64,000 bases of DNA from Spiribacter roseus (GTDB lineage: Bacteria > Pseudomonadota > Gammaproteobacteria > Nitrococcales > Nitrococcaceae). The position numbers were made by a program, and so were the translations under genes. Position 1 is the first letter of the stretch. Each line of letters opens with the position of its first letter. Location: NCBI RefSeq assembly GCF_002813635.1, contig NZ_CP016382.1:1585001-1649000 (forward strand). The letters run 5' to 3'. The notes beneath the pieces were generated by a model. The model saw only the letters and a program-made list of their open reading frames with translations, was not told the origin of the DNA and ran no database searches. Shown here in pieces: positions 6,657 through 60,973 of the stretch.

Positions 6657-6713
6657 TGTTCCGGGTCGGACAGTTGCTATACTGACGGTCATCAACCTGC
6701 AATGAGGTGTGCC

Positions 6714-7226
6714 GTGCGAAAAGAATGGTTAGTGGGTGTACTGGCCCTGGTCATCGTCGGCCTGGTGGGCTATGTCTGGTTTGCCCCGCCGACGCGCGAG
6801 CCGGCCCCCAATGTTCAACTCGAGCGCCTCGACGGCGCGCAGACCGCGCTGGCGGAGCACCGCGGCGAGGCGGTCATGCTGGTGTTCTGGGCCACCACCT
6901 GCCCGACCTGCATCCAGGAAATGCCCGAAGTGGTGGAGCTGCACCACGACCTGGGGGACGAGGGCCTGACCATCCTGGGCGTGGCGATGGACTACGATCC
7001 GCGCGATCAGGTGCGGGCGCTGGTCGAGCGCCGCGGCCTGCCCTATGACATCGTTCTGGATAACGGCGGCCGCATCGCCAATGCCTTCAACCAGGTCCGC
7101 GTGACGCCCACCACGGTACTCATCGACCCCGACGGGGGCGTGGTCTGGCAGCGCATTGGCCCGATCGACTTCGAGGGACTGCGCGAACAACTCGAGCCAA
7201 TGCTCGCGGAGCGACAGTCGGCATGA
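6714..7226 (+). CDS. membrane-anchored thioredoxin-like (TlpA/redoxin) protein
   Basis: A 170-residue thiol-disulfide protein tethered to the membrane by an N-terminal hydrophobic helix (about residues 5-23), with its thioredoxin fold probably in the periplasm. The redox motif is CPTC in WATTCPTCIQEMP, followed by the cis-proline VTPTTVLIDPDG. The start is the GTG at 6714: GAGG lies six bases upstream, whereas the in-frame ATG at 6702 lies on top of that site. A TATACT sequence at 6678-6683 may be the -10 box. It overlaps hemJ by ATGA, so the two are translationally coupled. A role in cytochrome maturation or envelope redox balance is possible but not shown. Confidence 0.85.
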   Translation: MRKEWLVGVLALVIVGLVGYVWFAPPTREPAPNVQLERLDGAQTALAEHRGEAVMLVFWATTCPTCIQEMPEVVELHHDLGDEGLTILGVAMDYDPRDQVRALVERRGLPYDIVLDNGGRIANAFNQVRVTPTTVLIDPDGGVVWQRIGPIDFEGLREQLEPMLAERQSA

Positions 7227-7651
7227 CCGCGTTGTGGATCAAGTCCTTTCACATCATTGCCGTGGTGACCTGGTTCGCGGCGCTGTTCTATCTGCCGCGG
7301 CTGTTCGTCTATCACGCCATGACCGAGGATGAACCCGGCCGCGAGCGCTTCCGTGTCATGGAGCGCAAGCTCTACCGTGGCATCATGAACCCCAGCGCGG
7401 TGGTGGCCGTGGGACTCGGCGTGGCACTGATCGTGGTCCAGCCGTTCTGGCTGGAACAGGGCTGGCTGCATGTCAAGATACTGCTGGTGGTGGGGCTGAT
7501 CGGCTATCATCTGTACTGCGGTCGACTGCTGCGGGCCTTTGCCGAGGATCGCAACACCCGCAGTCACCGCTGGTATCGTGTATTCAACGAATTGCCCGTG
7601 CTGGTGCTGATCGCCGTGGTCCTGCTGGTCGAGCTCAAGCCCTGGGCCTGA
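7223..7651 (+). CDS. hemJ: protoporphyrinogen IX oxidase, HemJ type
   Basis: A membrane enzyme that oxidises protoporphyrinogen IX to protoporphyrin IX, the penultimate heme step, in bacteria lacking HemG or HemY. The 142-residue protein has four predicted membrane helices and the family signature KSFHIIAVVTWFAALFYLPR with its conserved histidine, plus a conserved arginine/lysine-rich cytoplasmic stretch before LHVKILLVVGLIGYH. The ATG at 7223 overlaps the stop of the redoxin gene. An Irr-like, possibly heme- or iron-responsive regulator follows on the same strand. Confidence 0.9.
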   Translation: MTALWIKSFHIIAVVTWFAALFYLPRLFVYHAMTEDEPGRERFRVMERKLYRGIMNPSAVVAVGLGVALIVVQPFWLEQGWLHVKILLVVGLIGYHLYCGRLLRAFAEDRNTRSHRWYRVFNELPVLVLIAVVLLVELKPWA

Positions 7652-7723
7652 GCGCCAGCGCCTGATGGCTGTGGCGCGGCCGGCATTCCATGCTACCCTT
7701 ATAGAGTACTGATCAAGTCCACA

Positions 7724-8167
7724 ATGGTGTCTGTAATGACGTCTGCGCTGTTCTCCCGCCAACATGATGATTACGTGCGCGACCTGCTGCAGGGCGCCGG
7801 CCTGCGGGCGACCCGTCAGCGCATGGGGCTGGCCGGGCTCATTTTCGGTCAGGGCGAGCGCCACATCACCGCCGAAGAGCTGTATGCCGAGGCCATTGAG
7901 GCCGGCATGCGGCTCTCCCAGACGACGGTGTACAACACCCTGCACCAGTTCACCGAAGCCGGGCTGCTGCGCGAGATCCTCGCCGACCCGCGCCGCATCT
8001 ACTTTGACACCAAGGTCGACCCGCACCACCACTTCCTCGACGAGGAAACCGGTGAGATGGAAGACATCCCCCACAACCGCGTGGCGGTGGATGGCCTGCC
8101 GACGCCGCCCCCTGGCAAGACCATCGAGGGCGTCGACGTCATCGTGCGGGTGCGTCGCCCGGGCTGA
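7724..8167 (+). CDS. irr: Irr-like Fur-family transcriptional regulator
   Basis: A 147-residue DNA-binding repressor of the Fur superfamily that most resembles Irr, the iron/heme response regulator of rhizobia. The winged-helix region has RATRQRMGLAGLIF and TVYNTLHQFTEAGLLREI. YFDTKVDPHHHFLDEETGE carries the HHH cluster used by Irr for metal or heme binding. No cysteine is present, so it lacks both the Fur zinc CxxC pairs and a Cys-Pro heme motif. Starts at 7724 or 7736 are both possible. It follows hemJ by 72 bases, which contain a weak GCGCCA/TGGCGC dyad. Control of heme synthesis is the natural inference. Confidence 0.82.
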   Translation: MVSVMTSALFSRQHDDYVRDLLQGAGLRATRQRMGLAGLIFGQGERHITAEELYAEAIEAGMRLSQTTVYNTLHQFTEAGLLREILADPRRIYFDTKVDPHHHFLDEETGEMEDIPHNRVAVDGLPTPPPGKTIEGVDVIVRVRRPG

Positions 8168-11766: not shown

Positions 11767-12225
11767 ATGCACCGCACCGCCCTTCACCGACTCACCGGGT
11801 TGGCCACCGCCCTGATCGGCACCGCCCTGGCGGGCGCCGCGCAGGCCGAGCTGATCATTGAAGACGCCTGGGCCCGGGCGACGCCACCGGGTTTTTCCAA
11901 GGGCGCCGTCTACCTTGAAATCCGCAATGACAGCCGGCGCAGTGACACCCTGATCGGCGTGCACACCGAGCGCGCCGGCCGCGCCGAACTGCATCGCACC
12001 ATCGAGGAAGGCGGCAACAGCCGCATGGTCCACACGCCCCGGGTGCGCGTGCCCGCTGAGGGCAGCGTGACCTTTGAACCCGGCGGCCGGCACGTGATGA
12101 TGATGGGCATTGACGAGGCCCTCACCGAGGGCGAGCGCTTCAGCCTTGAACTCGAGGCCGAGACCGCCGGCACCCTCCGGGTCAACGTCGAGGTGCTGGC
12201 CCCCACGGCCATGGGCGTCGACTAG
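11767..12225 (+). CDS. periplasmic copper chaperone, PCu(A)C family
   Basis: A 152-residue secreted protein that binds Cu(I) and helps build the CuA site of cytochrome oxidase. A clear signal peptide ends near residue 27 (ALAGAAQA, then ELIIEDAWARA). The metal motif H-X10-M-X21-HXM is exact: His in LHRT, Met in SRMVH, and HVM in GGRHVMMMG. The stop codon shares the tetranucleotide CTAG (12222-12225) with the stop of convergent hemN. CopA and a CsoR-like repressor occur elsewhere in the window. Confidence 0.93.
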   Translation: MHRTALHRLTGLATALIGTALAGAAQAELIIEDAWARATPPGFSKGAVYLEIRNDSRRSDTLIGVHTERAGRAELHRTIEEGGNSRMVHTPRVRVPAEGSVTFEPGGRHVMMMGIDEALTEGERFSLELEAETAGTLRVNVEVLAPTAMGVD

Positions 12226-13613
12226 ATCACGCGGGAGAAGCGCCGTTCGCCGCCGGCCGCTGCCAGGTAGGCGTCGAACGGCATCGCCACGTTGCGCAGG
12301 AAAAACCGCCCCCGCGGCGTGACCTCGAGCGCGCCGGGCGCCAGCGTGAGCAGGCCGTCATCCACCAGCGGCGAGAGGGCCGCGAGGGCATCGCCGAAGT
12401 AGTCGGCAAAATCGATCCCATGACGCGCCTCAATCGCCGCGTAGTCGACCCGCCCCCGGCACATCACCGCCTGGATCACATCGCGGCGCAGGCGGTCGTC
12501 GTCGTCCATGGCCACGCCCCGCCAGATCGGCAGCTCGCCGGCGCGGACCGCGGCCGCATGGCCCTCGGGGTCACGATGATTCTGCATGAAGGCATCCCCG
12601 ATCTGGCCAATGGATGAGGCCCCCAGGCCGATCAGATCCAGATCGGGGCGGGTGGCATAACCCTGGAAGTTGCGGTGCAGGGTGCCGTTATCGGCCGCCT
12701 CGGCCAGTTCATCGCCGGGCAGCGCGAAATGATCCATGCCGATGTACTGATAGCCCTCGCCGGCGAGGCGCTGCATGGCTTCGATCAGCAGGGTGAGCTT
12801 CATTTCCGCCGCGGGCAGGGTGGCGTCGGGGATCTGGCGCTGGATGCGGAACATCTGCGGCATGTGCGCATAGTTGTACAGGGCGATGCGGTCGGGGCGC
12901 ATGGTCATCACCGCGTCCAGGGTCCGCGACAGGCGCTCGGGCGTCTGCAGCGGCAGGCCGTACATCAGATCCAGATTGATGGAGCGAAAGCCCTGGGCGC
13001 GAGCCTCCTCAACGATGTCGGCCGTGGCCTGAACGCCCTGGATGCGATTGATCGCCTTCTGCACGTCGTCATCGAAATCCTGCACCCCCAGGCTCAGGCG
13101 ATTGAAGCCCAGCGCGGCAAGGTGGCGGATGCGCTGGCGGTCCACCGTGCGTGGGTCCACCTCAATGGAAAACTCGCGCCGCTCCGGCGCCGCCAGGGGA
13201 AAGCGCTCGGCGATGGCGTCGATCAGTGTCGCCAGATCGTCGTCACTCAGATAGGTCGGGGTACCACCGCCCAGGTGCAGCTGCTCCACGGGACGGTCGT
13301 CGGCGAACAGCGCCGCCTGCAGGTCCAGCTCCTCGATCAGCCGGGCCAGATAGTCCTGGGCCCGCCGGTAGTTGGCGGTGATCACCTTGTTGCAGGCGCA
13401 GTAGAAGCACACCGTGCGGCAGAACGGCACATGCACGTAGAGCGACAGCGGCCGGGGGATGGGATCACCATTGCTCCAGCTGACATGGTCGCGGTAACGC
13501 GCGGCGTCGAAGTCCTCGGTGAACTGGGCGGCGGTCGGATAGGAAGTGTACCGGGGCCCGGTCACGTCATAGCGACGCAGCAGGGCCCGGTCGAGAAGAA
13601 GATTGTCGGCCAT
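12222..13613 (-). CDS. hemN: oxygen-independent coproporphyrinogen III oxidase
   Basis: A radical-SAM enzyme that decarboxylates coproporphyrinogen III when oxygen is scarce. The cluster motif CRTVCFYCACNK (CX3CX2CXC) is intact, followed by the HemN stretch HLGGGTPTYLSDDDL. The RYTSYPTAAQF N-terminal signature is also present. ATG 13613 gives 463 residues, close to E. coli HemN (457), with GGGAG nine bases upstream. Upstream in-frame ATGs would add non-conserved residues. A partial FNR-like dyad lies about 62 bases upstream. Confidence 0.95.
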   Translation of the reverse strand: MADNLLLDRALLRRYDVTGPRYTSYPTAAQFTEDFDAARYRDHVSWSNGDPIPRPLSLYVHVPFCRTVCFYCACNKVITANYRRAQDYLARLIEELDLQAALFADDRPVEQLHLGGGTPTYLSDDDLATLIDAIAERFPLAAPERREFSIEVDPRTVDRQRIRHLAALGFNRLSLGVQDFDDDVQKAINRIQGVQATADIVEEARAQGFRSINLDLMYGLPLQTPERLSRTLDAVMTMRPDRIALYNYAHMPQMFRIQRQIPDATLPAAEMKLTLLIEAMQRLAGEGYQYIGMDHFALPGDELAEAADNGTLHRNFQGYATRPDLDLIGLGASSIGQIGDAFMQNHRDPEGHAAAVRAGELPIWRGVAMDDDDRLRRDVIQAVMCRGRVDYAAIEARHGIDFADYFGDALAALSPLVDDGLLTLAPGALEVTPRGRFFLRNVAMPFDAYLAAAGGERRFSRVI

Positions 13614-13674
13614 GGACGCGCCGCTCCCGATGCAGTGTTTCATGTCATCATAGGCGTTGTGCGACACGGCCGGG

Positions 13675-24247: not shown

Positions 24248-26052
24248 CGGCGCAGTCGTGGCAACAGGACACCGGGCTTGATCACGGCCCGTTCCAGATC
24301 GATCAGCCAGAGCCGCTCACCGTCATCGGCCCGCGCCTGCCAGGCCCGCAGCACCCAGCGCTGACGGGCATTCTCACCCACGCTTATCCAGACATGGTCG
24401 GGGCGATGGCCGGCATGCCAGCGCGGCAGCACCGGCAGTCGGGCGGCATCGGGCCGCGGGCTGATCCAGCGCAGCGCGCTCTGCCAGCGCCACGCCGGCG
24501 GCGATGTCCAGCCCGGCTCCGGCGGTTGCCAGTCGCTGGCTTCAATGACCGCGACGAACGGCGCCGCCGGGCCGGCGAGGCCCAGCCGCTGACTGGCGGG
24601 CTCAGGCCATGGTGATCCGGGCGGATAGCGGTCCAGCGGATCCGGCCAATCCAGCACGGCCGCACCGGCGGCGGCCAGGACCAGCACGCCCGCCGACACG
24701 CTCACCGCTGCCGGAAACCGCGGTGGACGGCGCTTGCCCGTGGCGGCCAGAGCGGGCAGCGCGCCCAGCACCACGCCCAGACTGATCCCCGCCACCAGAT
24801 CCATCGGCCAATGCACCCCCAGCACCAGCCGCGACCCGGCCACTGCCGCCACCCCCACACCCGCCAGCGCCATCAACCCGCGGTAGGGCCCACGCGCGGA
24901 CAGCGGCAGCAGCGTCAGCCAGGCGGTGACAAGCGCCGCGATCGCGGCGGCATGCACACTGGGGTAGGCGCCACTCCAGCCGGCCGTGCCGGTCAGCGCG
25001 GCAGGCCGCGGCAACCCCAGCCCATGCTTGAGCGCCAGTCCCAGGGCAACGGCCAGCAACACGCCCAGCAGGGCATGCACCGCACGGCGAGCCTGGCCCT
25101 GCCAGGCCAGCAGCGCGGCCAGTGCCAGGGTGGCGAGGGCAATCGGCAGGCTGCCACCGGCCTGAGTCAGCCACCAGGCGAACGCCTGCAGGGATTCGCT
25201 GCGCTGGGCATCAAACAGCGCGACCGCCCCGCGCTCCCAGCCTGCCGGCGCGGGGGCGAGGACCGCCCGGGACAGCGTCGCGATCACCCCCAGCAGGGCC
25301 AGCCACCACAGCCAGCCCTCGCGGTGGCGCAGCGCCCGGACGGCGGCATGCGGTCCATGCAGCCAACGGCGCCAGTCACCCGGCGGCGGATGACGGCCGA
25401 TGGCCCGCGCCACCCGGTTGCCCAGCAGGCGCAGCGGCCGATCGATACGCGGGATCAACCAGCGCAGCAGCAGAAATCCCCCAAACCCCAGGGCCAGCCA
25501 CGCCACCAACCGCCCCATGACCTCCATGGCCAGGGCCAGCGACGCGCCAAAAACGATCCCCGGGAGCAGATAGGCGGGTGCCCAGCCGATGGCCGAGCCC
25601 ACATTGGCCAGCAGGAACCGCCCTGGCGGCATCCCCAGCATCCCCACCACGGCCGGGATCACCGGGCGCACCGGACCGATGAAGCGACCCAGCACCACGC
25701 TCTTGCCGCCGTGGCGCAGGAACAGCTGCTCGGCCCGATCCATGGCCTGGGGATAGCGTCGCACCAGCGGCAGGGTGCGCAGCTGATCACGGTAATGGCG
25801 GCCCAGCCAGTAACTGAGTGAATCACCGACGATGGCGCCGGCCATGGCCCATAGCAGCATGGGCAGGATCGCGATATTGCTGCCGCCCACCGCCGCGCCG
25901 GCGAGGAACATCAGCACGGCACCGGGGACGATCAGCCCGACCAGCGCCAGCGACTCAGTCAACGCAATCAGGCCAATGATCACCCCGGCCCAGCCGGGGT
26001 TGACCGAGAGCCACTCGAACAGTGGCTCAAGCGCTGATTCGAGACTGCTCAC
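24133..26052 (-). CDS. DedA-PAP2-LssY fusion membrane protein
   Basis: A 639-residue multi-domain membrane protein. The N-terminal 200 residues are DedA-like ([16 protein letters not shown] and [17 protein letters not shown]). The middle is a PAP2 phosphatase with KHGLGLPRP (about residue 340), YPSVHAA and [12 protein letters not shown] (about residue 408), giving the three PAP2 motifs. The C-terminal 130 residues resemble the LssY C-terminal domain. It probably acts on a lipid phosphate, but the substrate is unknown. It starts with a GTG at 26052 that overlaps the hemL stop (GTGA). The last ~35 codons are antisense to the end of mpl. Confidence 0.85.
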
Positions 26053-27332
26053 AGATCGGCGAACACCTGCTCAGCGGCATCCAGGGTATGCCGAAGCGCC
26101 GCCTCGTCATGGGCGGTGGAGACAAAGCCCGCCTCGAAGGCCGACGGGGCCAGATAGACACCCGCATCGAGCATGCCGTGGAAAAAGCGCACGAAGCGAT
26201 CGCCATCACAGGCGGCGACATCCTCGAAGCCCACCACCGAATCGCGGTCGGTGAAGAACAGGCCGAACATGGTCCCGGCCTGATGGGTCCTGAGCGCCAC
26301 GCCGGCACGGGCGGCCCGGTCCCGCAGGCCCTCGAGCAGCCGGGCGGTCCATGCCTCGGCCTCAGCATGCACACCCGGCCGGGCAAGCTCGGTGAGGGTG
26401 GTCAGGCCGCTGGCCATGGCCAGCGGATTGCCGGACAGCGTGCCCGCCTGATAGACCGGCCCGGTGGGCGCCAGCCAGTCCATGATCTCAGCGCGCCCGC
26501 CGAGGGCCGCCGTGGGCAGGCCGCCGCCGATGACCTTGCCCAGACAGGTCAGATCCGGATGGATGCCGTACCAGGCCTGGGCACCCCCCAGCGAGGCGCG
26601 GAAGCCGCTCATCACCTCGTCAAAGACCAGCAGCGCGCCGGTGTCATCGCAGACATCCCGCAGCCCCTGCAGGAACTCGGGCAGCGCCGGCACACAGTTC
26701 ATATTGCCGGACACCGGTTCGACCAGTATCGCGGCGAGGCTGTCGCCGTATTCGGCCACCAGCTGCCGGACGCTGTCGATGTCGTTGTAGGGGGCGGTCA
26801 GGGTGGTCTCGGTGACCGCCGCCGGAACCCCCGGTGAGCCGGGAATCCCCAGCGTCAGCACCCCCGAACCGGCCTCCACCAGCAGCGCATCGACATGGCC
26901 GTGGTAGTTGCCGCGAAACTTCAGTACCCGGTCACGGCCGGTGTAGCCGCGGGCCAGGCGCACCGCGCTCATGCAGGCCTCGGTGCCGGAGTTGACCATG
27001 CGCAGGCGCTCCATGCCGGGCATGATCGCCTGGACCTTTCTGGCCAGCTCGGTTTCAAGCTCGGTGGGGGCGCCAAAACTGGTGCCATTGGCGGCGGTCT
27101 GCGCAATGGCATCCACCACCGCCGGGTGGGCATGACCAATGGCGAGGGGGCCATAGGAGAGCACGTAATCGACATACTGTCGGCCATCGACGTCCTCGAT
27201 CCATGCCCCCTGACCGCGGCGCATGAACACGGGGGTACCACCGACGGCCCGGAACGCGCGCACCGCCGAGTTCACGCCCCCGACCAGATACTGGTTCGCC
27301 TCCTCGAAAAGCGCTTCGGATCGATTCGTCAT
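26049..27332 (-). CDS. hemL: glutamate-1-semialdehyde 2,1-aminomutase
   Basis: Makes 5-aminolevulinate from glutamate-1-semialdehyde in the C5 heme pathway. The 427-residue PLP enzyme has the lysine in [17 protein letters not shown] and the upstream [31 protein letters not shown] and [18 protein letters not shown] are also family signatures. ATG 27332 has GGAGA six bases upstream. thiE and rubredoxin lie just upstream, a known gammaproteobacterial arrangement, and the fusion gene follows with a GTGA overlap. Confidence 0.97.
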
Positions 27333-27360
27333 GAATTCTCCGCGTGTTGTTTGGGTGGGC

Positions 27361-27996
27361 TCAGGCCGCCGGGCCGAAGCCCCGGTCAATCAGGGTGGCG
27401 GTGGCGGCCTCGATGTCCGGCGCCGCCGATATCGCTTCGACCACGGCCACGGCGTCGGCCCCGGCCGCCGTCACCTCGGCGATGTTACCGGCGTTGATGC
27501 CGCCGATCGCCACCAGCGGGCGGTCCGTGAAGGCCCGCGCCTCGCGGAACACCGACAGCGGCGCCAGTGCCGACTCGGGCTTGGTCGGTGACGGGTAGAG
27601 GCTGCCGAACGCCAGGTAATCGGCCCCGGCCTCAGCGGCCGCCCGGGCCCGGTCAAGATCGGCATAGCAGGACACGCCGATCAGGCGGTCCGGCCCCAGC
27701 GCCGCGCGGGCCGCCGCCACATCGCCATCGTCCCGGCCCAGATGAACGCCGTCCGCCGCCACCGCCCGGGCCAGCGCAATGTCGTCGTTGACGATGAAAC
27801 AGGCACCGACGGCCCGGCACCGGGCGGCCAGCGCCGCCGCTTCGTGCCGCCGGCGCTCGGTGTCATCGGACTTGTCGCGATACTGGACCACCCGGACACC
27901 GCCGCGCAGCGCGGCGGCCACCGCCGTCTCCAAGGGCACGGGCGGCGGCCGGCGGGCGTCAGTGACCATGTAGAGCCCGGTGATCGGACCGGTCAT
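27361..27996 (-). CDS. thiE: thiamine-phosphate synthase
   Basis: Couples the thiazole and pyrimidine halves to make thiamine phosphate. The 211-residue TIM barrel begins [16 protein letters not shown] and has [38 protein letters not shown] (pyrimidine/pyrophosphate site) and the closing glycine motif [17 protein letters not shown] 27996 comes two bases after the rubredoxin stop. The ribosome site is weak, so it may rely on coupling. A longer frame to 28050 would overlap rubredoxin and was rejected. Confidence 0.95.
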
Positions 27997-60017: not shown

Positions 60018-60461
60018 ATGCAGTATCTGCACACAATGGTCCGAATCAGTGACGTCGATGCGTCGCTGCGGTTTTACTGCGACCTGCTCGGCCTCGAGGA
60101 GATCAGCCGTCAGGACAGCGAAAAGGGGCGTTTCACCCTGATCTTCCTGGCCGCGCCGGCCGACCGTGACCGGGCCCGCTCCAGCGATCGGGCGCCGATG
60201 CTCGAGCTGACCTACAACTGGGACCCGGAGACCTACACCGGCGGCCGCAATTTCGGTCATCTGGCCTATCGCGTCGACGACATCTACGCCACCTGCCAAC
60301 ACCTCATGGACAATGGCGTGACCATCAACCGGCCGCCGCGCGACGGGCACATGGCGTTCGTCAAATCCCCCGACGGCATCTCGGTGGAGCTGCTGCAGAG
60401 TGGCGACGCGCTGCCCACGCAGGAACCCTGGGCCTCCATGGCCAACACGGGGAGCTGGTAA
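60018..60461 (+). CDS. gloA: lactoylglutathione lyase (glyoxalase I, VOC family)
   Basis: Detoxifies methylglyoxal, a by-product of DHAP, with glutathione. The 147-residue VOC enzyme has metal residues in QYLHTMVRISD, MLELTYNWD, FGHLAYRVDDIYATC and ISVELLQSG. GGAGGATGG lies before ATG 60018. Glycerol catabolism raises DHAP, so its place after glpK fits. tspO follows with a TAATG overlap. Confidence 0.9.
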   Translation: MQYLHTMVRISDVDASLRFYCDLLGLEEISRQDSEKGRFTLIFLAAPADRDRARSSDRAPMLELTYNWDPETYTGGRNFGHLAYRVDDIYATCQHLMDNGVTINRPPRDGHMAFVKSPDGISVELLQSGDALPTQEPWASMANTGSW

Positions 60462-60973
60462 TGCCGGCGGCCGGCGCACGGCCCATGGATGACCGGCGCC
60501 GCGACCGGTGGGGCCTGGCCGGCTGGACACTGCTGGTGGTGGTGACCGCGATGGGCGGCATCCTCAGCCCGCCCGGGGCCTGGTACGCGGCGCTCGCCAA
60601 GCCGCCGATGACCCCGCCGGACCTGCTCTTTCCGATCGCCTGGACGCTGCTCTATGGGCTGATGATCGCCGCGGCCTGGCAGGTCTGGCGACGGATCGGG
60701 CTGCTGGCGGGCCTTGCCGTGCTCATCCCGTTCATCGCCCAACTGGGCGCCAACGGCCTGTGGAGCATCCTGTTCTTTCAGTGGCATCGCCCGGATCTGG
60801 CACTCGTGGACCTGGTGGTGCTCTGGGCGCTCATCGCGCTGACCATGCTGCGCTTTCGCCGGGTGCACCCGCCGGCGGCGTGGCTGCTGGCGCCCTATCT
60901 GGTGTGGGTCACCTACGCCGGGTATCTCAACATCGGCGTCATCCTGCTGAACGGGCCCGCGCCGCCAGCCTGA
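60461..60973 (+). CDS. TspO/MBR-family membrane protein
   Basis: A 170-residue membrane protein of the tryptophan-rich sensory/translocator family, which binds tetrapyrroles such as heme precursors. The pattern is clear: PPGAWYAALAKPPMTPPDLL, FPIAWTLLYGLMIAAAWQVW and LWSILFFQWHRPDLAL. In other bacteria it modulates heme/porphyrin export under stress. It is coupled to gloA and converges on a LysR-type gene. Confidence 0.87.
   Translation: MPAAGARPMDDRRRDRWGLAGWTLLVVVTAMGGILSPPGAWYAALAKPPMTPPDLLFPIAWTLLYGLMIAAAWQVWRRIGLLAGLAVLIPFIAQLGANGLWSILFFQWHRPDLALVDLVVLWALIALTMLRFRRVHPPAAWLLAPYLVWVTYAGYLNIGVILLNGPAPPA

Follow-up and report, generated by a model that had tools for sequence, protein, structure and literature searches.

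Irr of Bradyrhizobium, Rhizobium, Brucella and Rhodobacter, represented by the protein models NF045678 (IrrA) and NF045677 (Irr), belongs to the Fur superfamily and is characterized by an HxH motif, a recognition helix with Tyr-Asn and the lack of CxxC. The ligand set of PerR is His3Asp2. The HxH was described as the heme motif of known Irr proteins (PMC7762939, PMC3413700), and the PerR-type Asp and Asn residues together with the missing CxxC were already published as common to known Irr (PMC8638967). According to passages of a review, Irr is, few exceptions aside, confined to alphaproteobacteria (PMC7762939); its presence in acidithiobacilli was predicted in 2008 (PMC2631029). In the RirA-Irr circuit of rhizobia an Rrf2 iron-sulphur regulator is linked to Irr: in rhizobia with RirA, irr is listed with the genes that are reduced or repressed when iron is sufficient, and in the rirA mutant of S. 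fredii the irr level fell slightly and did not rise, as given in passages of the same article (PMC6386902). A membership of irr in a SUF/IscR-type regulon was not found in the titles, abstract beginnings and few passages of the literature surveyed.

The stretch of DNA analysed here, called the window, comprises 64,000 nucleotides of Spiribacter roseus, a gammaproteobacterium whose single-contig genome has a size of 1.93 Mb and contains, besides Fur and the Irr-type gene, a Zur-like gene as the third member of the Fur family. The gene order in the window is argC, clcA, a TlpA-like gene, hemJ and irr, followed by ptsP on the opposite strand; the names argC, clcA, ptsP and rppH, as well as the grxD-, sod- and FutA-like labels used below, were assigned by eye or are presumed. 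The gene of the TlpA/ResA-like thiol-disulfide protein (6702..7226, plus strand) lies upstream of hemJ, and hemJ, encoding protoporphyrinogen oxidase (7223..7651, plus strand), was recognized by TIGR00701 with 158.1 bits (cut-off 138.05). The Fur-family open reading frame in its longest form, 7724-8167 (147 aa), follows hemJ after a gap of 72 bases, as was reported in the preliminary description. The start codon is probably the ATG at 7736, judged from its presence in all 14 Spiribacter-type loci, which would make irr (7736..8167, plus strand) a gene for 143 aa and widen the gap to 84 bases. hemJ and irr were adjacent in 15 of 15 loci (13 Spiribacter genomes, G017 and G016) and in 0 of 15 further loci of the order, several of them incomplete. 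The position of irr beside hemJ is a local feature.

The earlier choice of Irr over Fur, Zur and PerR was borne out by the model scores and residues. The protein passed the IrrA model with 178.5 bits (E = 5.7e-53, cut-off 150) and remained slightly below the cut-off of the Irr model (168.2 bits, cut-off 170), whereas the best PerR-type model resulted in 60.1 bits against a cut-off of 200, and the Fur model in 37.8 bits. The phylogeny that had been recommended as a check separated 131 Irr-superclade rows from 13 Fur rows with a split support of 100/100, in a tree of 144 rows that remained from 178 domain hits after the removal of duplicates and near-identical sequences and included no PerR or Zur rows. 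By residue alignment, the His3Asp2 site is composed of His47 (codon at 7862..7864, plus strand) and of Asp95, the HxH (His101-His102-His103) and Asp114 (8006..8065, plus strand), and the recognition-helix region TTVYNTLHQF (7922..7951, plus strand) carries Tyr-Asn as in Irr and PerR. H47, D95, H101, H103, D114 and Y70-N71 were invariant across the Irr-superclade rows except L164, which deviates at H101 and D114. In contrast, all 13 Fur rows had E, E, R and CxxC, and Tyr-Arg in the helix. The protein differs from Fur in the lack of CxxC, in D95 and D114 instead of the Glu ligands and in N71; it agrees with Irr in the HxH motif, the Tyr-Asn helix and, again, the lack of CxxC. Both peptides quoted in the preliminary description were found in it.

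The same residues bear on a second reading, a PerR-like sensor of peroxide or metal with iron at the His3Asp2 site and heme uninvolved. The H-D-H-H-D ligands and the Tyr-Asn helix correspond to the PerR set (PMC8638967), dps is among the candidate targets presented below, and the AlphaFold2 model (mean pLDDT 94.9, Fur-family fold) had its best match among solved structures in the Leptospira peroxide regulator 5nl9 (TM 0.72), with Fur structures next. We consider this reading improbable in view of the distance between the IrrA score and the low PerR scores. The CxxC of a structural zinc site is also missing from the protein, although Leptospira PerRA and PerRB are without CxxC too (PMC8638967). 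On the evidence of its sequence, the protein is a true Irr-type regulator; within its family it is ordinary, and what is unusual is its wiring.

The protein contains zero cysteines, as stated earlier, and lacks the Cys-Pro heme regulatory motif of the B. japonicum type; the Irr proteins of R. sphaeroides and Brucella are likewise without the motif (PMC3413700). This absence does not set the protein apart: a CP dipeptide was present in 6 of 57 alphaproteobacterial Irr tree rows, and the lack of Cys-Pro is the rule even there.

That a gammaproteobacterium carries an Irr-type gene was confirmed, but the view of Irr as mainly alphaproteobacterial was not: of 369 genomes sampled from this class, 151 had matches to the IrrA model at E<=1e-20. 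The NCBI cut-off of the IrrA model was passed in only 2 of the 369, the source genome included. When ten same-class proteins were examined singly, the Irr models outscored the PerR and Fur models in all of them, and three passed the IrrA cut-off. All but one of the 14 Spiribacter genomes carried irr, the one without it being 74% complete, and so did 4 of 9 other genomes sampled from the same family. The Spiribacter rows constituted one clade (support 99/100) in an alignment of few columns, with the bootstrap and the deeper branching unsettled. A recent transfer of irr from alphaproteobacteria is neither favoured nor dismissed, as the AU test rejected neither a clade of Spiribacter and two rows of the same family (p 0.43) nor a larger order-level clade (p 0.36). 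The highest identity to alphaproteobacterial Irr was 59%. Irr-like and Fur genes stood in tandem in several genomes of the order (L140, L142, L143, L144).

The preliminary description had regarded a heme regulon as plausible from the neighbouring hemJ and from three further genes, all of which do lie within the window: hemN (12222..13667, minus strand; TIGR00538), a HemL-like class-III aminotransferase gene (26049..27389, minus strand; HemL-like motif) and the gene of a TspO family protein (60461..60973, plus strand; PF03073). The corresponding regulator would be a classical rhizobial-type Irr, a heme-sensing repressor of hem genes acting via ICE, and the identity of up to 59%, the HxH motif and the hemJ neighbour would be in line with it. 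ICE was searched with the consensus TTAGAANNNTTCTAA, and the reversed pattern served as the control. In the 64-kb window, where a search ahead of the hem genes had been recommended, there was a single match with 3 mismatches, against 0.79 expected, and it was located away from hemJ, hemN, the hemL-like gene and tspO. The candidate Irr box TTGGAATNATTCCAA, described below, was found nowhere in the window, and hence at none of these genes. In the source genome 4 palindromic ICE sites were counted versus 3 with the reversed pattern; across the genus the reversed pattern was commoner in 13 of 14 genomes, and a second genus scan gave a similar result. An ICE-box regulon, scanned for in the window, the source genome and the genus, was dropped for lack of enrichment, as were three ICE-like sites (L174, L248, L260) that fall in conserved sequence where a response-regulator-like gene begins. 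A heme regulon of Spiribacter Irr is not supported by the sites read around the window's hem genes, and the classical rhizobial type is, to our judgement, very unlikely. The related palindrome TTGGAATNATTCCAA marks metal genes in Spiribacter.

The irr promoters of other bacteria differed in this respect. ICE was found in 8 of 56 alphaproteobacterial irr promoters (shuffle mean 0.53) and in 7 of 40 other gammaproteobacterial ones (0.43 in shuffles). The latter group also contained TTAGACNNNGTCTAA at <=2 mismatches in 12 of 40 promoters, compared with 0.13 expected, which may perhaps be an autoregulatory site of gammaproteobacterial Irr-like genes. Neither ICE nor TTAGACNNNGTCTAA was detected in the Spiribacter irr promoters (0 of 10 for each). 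Spiribacter Irr differs from that of the four alphaproteobacterial genera named at the outset in its gammaproteobacterial host, its place beside hemJ, the absence of a visible ICE regulon and a promoter that carries, instead of ICE, a probable SUF-regulator box. As a side observation, TTAGACNNNGTCTAA was mostly situated 42-58 bases ahead of the domain start (L117, L119, L129, L155, L159, L162 and others), and several of the Irr-like genes bearing it adjoin a thiO-like gene, identified by eye.

The box of the irr promoter, TATAGAGTACTGATCAAGTCCACAA (7700..7724, plus strand), is a palindrome revealed by the alignment of 14 loci. Its geometry, ATAxxxGACTxxxxxAGTCxxxTAT, is what we take to be that of an IscR type-1 site. 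All 14 Spiribacter-type loci contained G(G/T)AC-N7-GTCC, with AGAC in one, and an in-frame ATG 15-24 bases downstream. The 96% conservation of the core is partly built in, because the sites were chosen by pattern; when the 14 loci were aligned without any pattern, conservation over 15 columns was highest at GTACTAATTAAGTCC. Of the 14 Spiribacter-type irr promoters 13 had the SUF-type box at <=2 mismatches, and among 143 other irr promoters it was found once, in the alphaproteobacterial L091; five duplicate loci and rows with <120 bases upstream were left out of this comparison. Matches with 3-4 mismatches ahead of the suf regulator in irr-less relatives were not counted, because 24 of the 143 unrelated irr promoters also match at that distance.

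The genus scan at <=1 mismatch resulted in 27 SUF-type matches, 22 of which lay ahead of four genes: ten before irr, eight before the suf regulator, three before sod and one before grxD. The total did not exceed that of the reversed control (27 vs 30), so it is only the placement of the matches that is non-random. Similarly, the IscR consensus was found 12 times in the source genome against 16 times in reverse, and the SUF-type pattern 5 times in the window against 4.89 expected. The occurrences at sod and grxD belong to some of the Spiribacter genomes (L213, L215, L217, L200).

The suf regulator is a TIGR02944 protein (126.2 bits, cut-off 110.65) with cysteines present, and its gene is followed by two SufB/D-family genes. 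The SUF-type box at <=2 mismatches was located ahead of this gene in 11 of the 14 genomes with irr and in 7 of the 12 without. The possibility that the box is Irr's own was rejected, since it also stands ahead of the suf regulator in relatives that have no irr, and by the same distribution the irr-promoter box is probably the operator of the SUF (Rrf2) regulator, which would wire irr to the iron-sulphur status. The arrangement resembles IscR type-1/SUF-regulator systems (TIGR02944) in box geometry and in the genes that the box precedes, which are suf and, for part of the species, grxD and sod; it departs from known IscR/SUF regulons in having irr as a member. The likeness to the rhizobial circuit is in the Rrf2 regulator linked to Irr, the difference being that the Spiribacter Rrf2 protein is the SUF-operon regulator (TIGR02944). 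Two more IscR-like Rrf2 proteins of the source genome (L190:1474-1890 and L191) have seemingly lost their cluster cysteines mostly or wholly, for which the single-cysteine IscR of Rhodobacter offers a comparison (PMC4618611).

The genes on which Irr may act were approached through TTGGAATNATTCCAA. At <=2 mismatches 42 sites were found in 14 genomes, versus 20 (the bare total) for the reversed pattern. Just upstream of target genes, each confirmed by tblastn, were 24 of the 42: a Sit/Mnt-like SBP (9 genomes), sdhC (7), dps (5), ZIP (2) and a gene presumed to be FutA-like (1). Two of the remaining sites were at fur and 16 elsewhere, of which all but five (four in G012, one in G004) were read in context. 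The source genome has three sites, at the Sit/Mnt-like gene, sdhC and ZIP. sdhC passes its family model, and dps, ZIP and SBP score below the cut-offs; the best scores of SBP, both also below, were 177 bits for zinc AztC and 130 for manganese MntC. The conservation of the box compared with its two flanks was 91% vs 64% and 50% at the transporter (8 rows), 91% vs 85% and 69% at sdhC, and 87% vs 64% and 71% at dps, figures that are inflated because the sites were picked by pattern.

The reader of TTGGAATNATTCCAA could be sought in each Fur-family protein of the genome. The box is closest to ICE (2 positions), followed by PerR (4), B. subtilis Zur (4) and Fur (6). PerR and Irr boxes have T at position 2 and Fur boxes G; T was found in 18 of 23 sites. 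In the irr-less G014, of which 800 kb were taken (dps and the transporter being outside), the best match at sdhC had 5 mismatches, and the sdhC and fur promoters were without TTGGAATNATTCCAA although Fur is present; 4 sites at <=2 mismatches were counted there versus 2 reversed. From the nearest match to ICE, the sdhC of G014 without the box and the placement at genes, Irr is probably the likeliest reader of TTGGAATNATTCCAA, with Fur or Zur possible.

In the latter case Irr would still be SUF-controlled but would act on other targets, and TTGGAATNATTCCAA would be read by the Fur or Zur of the genome. Of these two, Fur scored 179.6 bits with NF006999 (cut-off 146), and the Zur-like protein reached 123.3 bits (cut-off 167). 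The metal ABC transporter, ZIP, the FutA-like gene and dps would suit either of them, and the higher score of the SBP as zinc AztC than as manganese MntC also speaks for such a reader. Fur-box matches at <=6/19 mismatches amounted to 15 against 0 reversed in 464 kb, and many look like coding repeats; that none was below 5/19 speaks for TTGGAATNATTCCAA as the box of Fur. The nearness to ICE, the T at position 2 and the G014 promoters argue against Fur, and sdhC and dps would be odd targets for Zur, leaving this alternative less likely than Irr as the reader, though well ahead of the PerR-like and the classical readings.

All five fur promoters read from genomes with the Spiribacter-type Irr had an ICE-like element resembling CTGGAATCATTCTAA (2-4 mismatches). 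In other fur promoters it had 5-6 mismatches (G014, G016, G031, G028, G024) or 6 (G015, G020, G038). The element is kept as weak because it overlaps likely divergent -10 hexamers.

The family, the residue set, the promoter box and the association of boxes with genes are the parts of the following model that come from sequence. We give about an even chance to an Irr-type regulator which is under the control of the SUF regulator and acts via TTGGAATNATTCCAA on metal, iron-storage and respiration genes rather than on heme genes. With clusters plentiful, the SUF regulator would repress irr and the suf operon together, joined in some species by sod and grxD; with clusters short, irr would be made. 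Irr would then bind TTGGAATNATTCCAA near start codons and mainly repress sdhC, dps, the Sit/Mnt-like transporter and ZIP, fur being a doubtful further target. On the return of iron, Irr may be released or destroyed by heme, or by ferrous iron together with peroxide, acting at the His3Asp2 site. Irr would in this way read two iron cofactors in series. We infer that Irr here is not primarily a regulator of heme synthesis. Neither the logic of a simple Irr nor that of a simple Fur accounts for a joint repression of an uptake system, dps and sdhC.

More tentatively, the two-cofactor circuit of Spiribacter may have arisen apart from that of rhizobia, with the SUF regulator acting on irr and Irr acting through the new palindrome TTGGAATNATTCCAA on a metal, iron-storage and respiration regulon from which heme genes are excluded, and Gammaproteobacteria more widely would share an iron/redox family of Irr-like regulators, common but for the most part without a name, with related boxes (TTAGACNNNGTCTAA). 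If true, one lineage has placed its irr promoter under iron-sulphur control and converged on the RirA-Irr arrangement, and Irr-like proteins are common in Gammaproteobacteria, contrary to the alphaproteobacterial restriction. The model offers concrete boxes and genes in a cultivable halophile with a small genome. A further sequence, TTGGAATCGTTCCAG, was observed directly before a rhodopsin-like gene, identified by eye, in one Spiribacter genome (L281 and L287).
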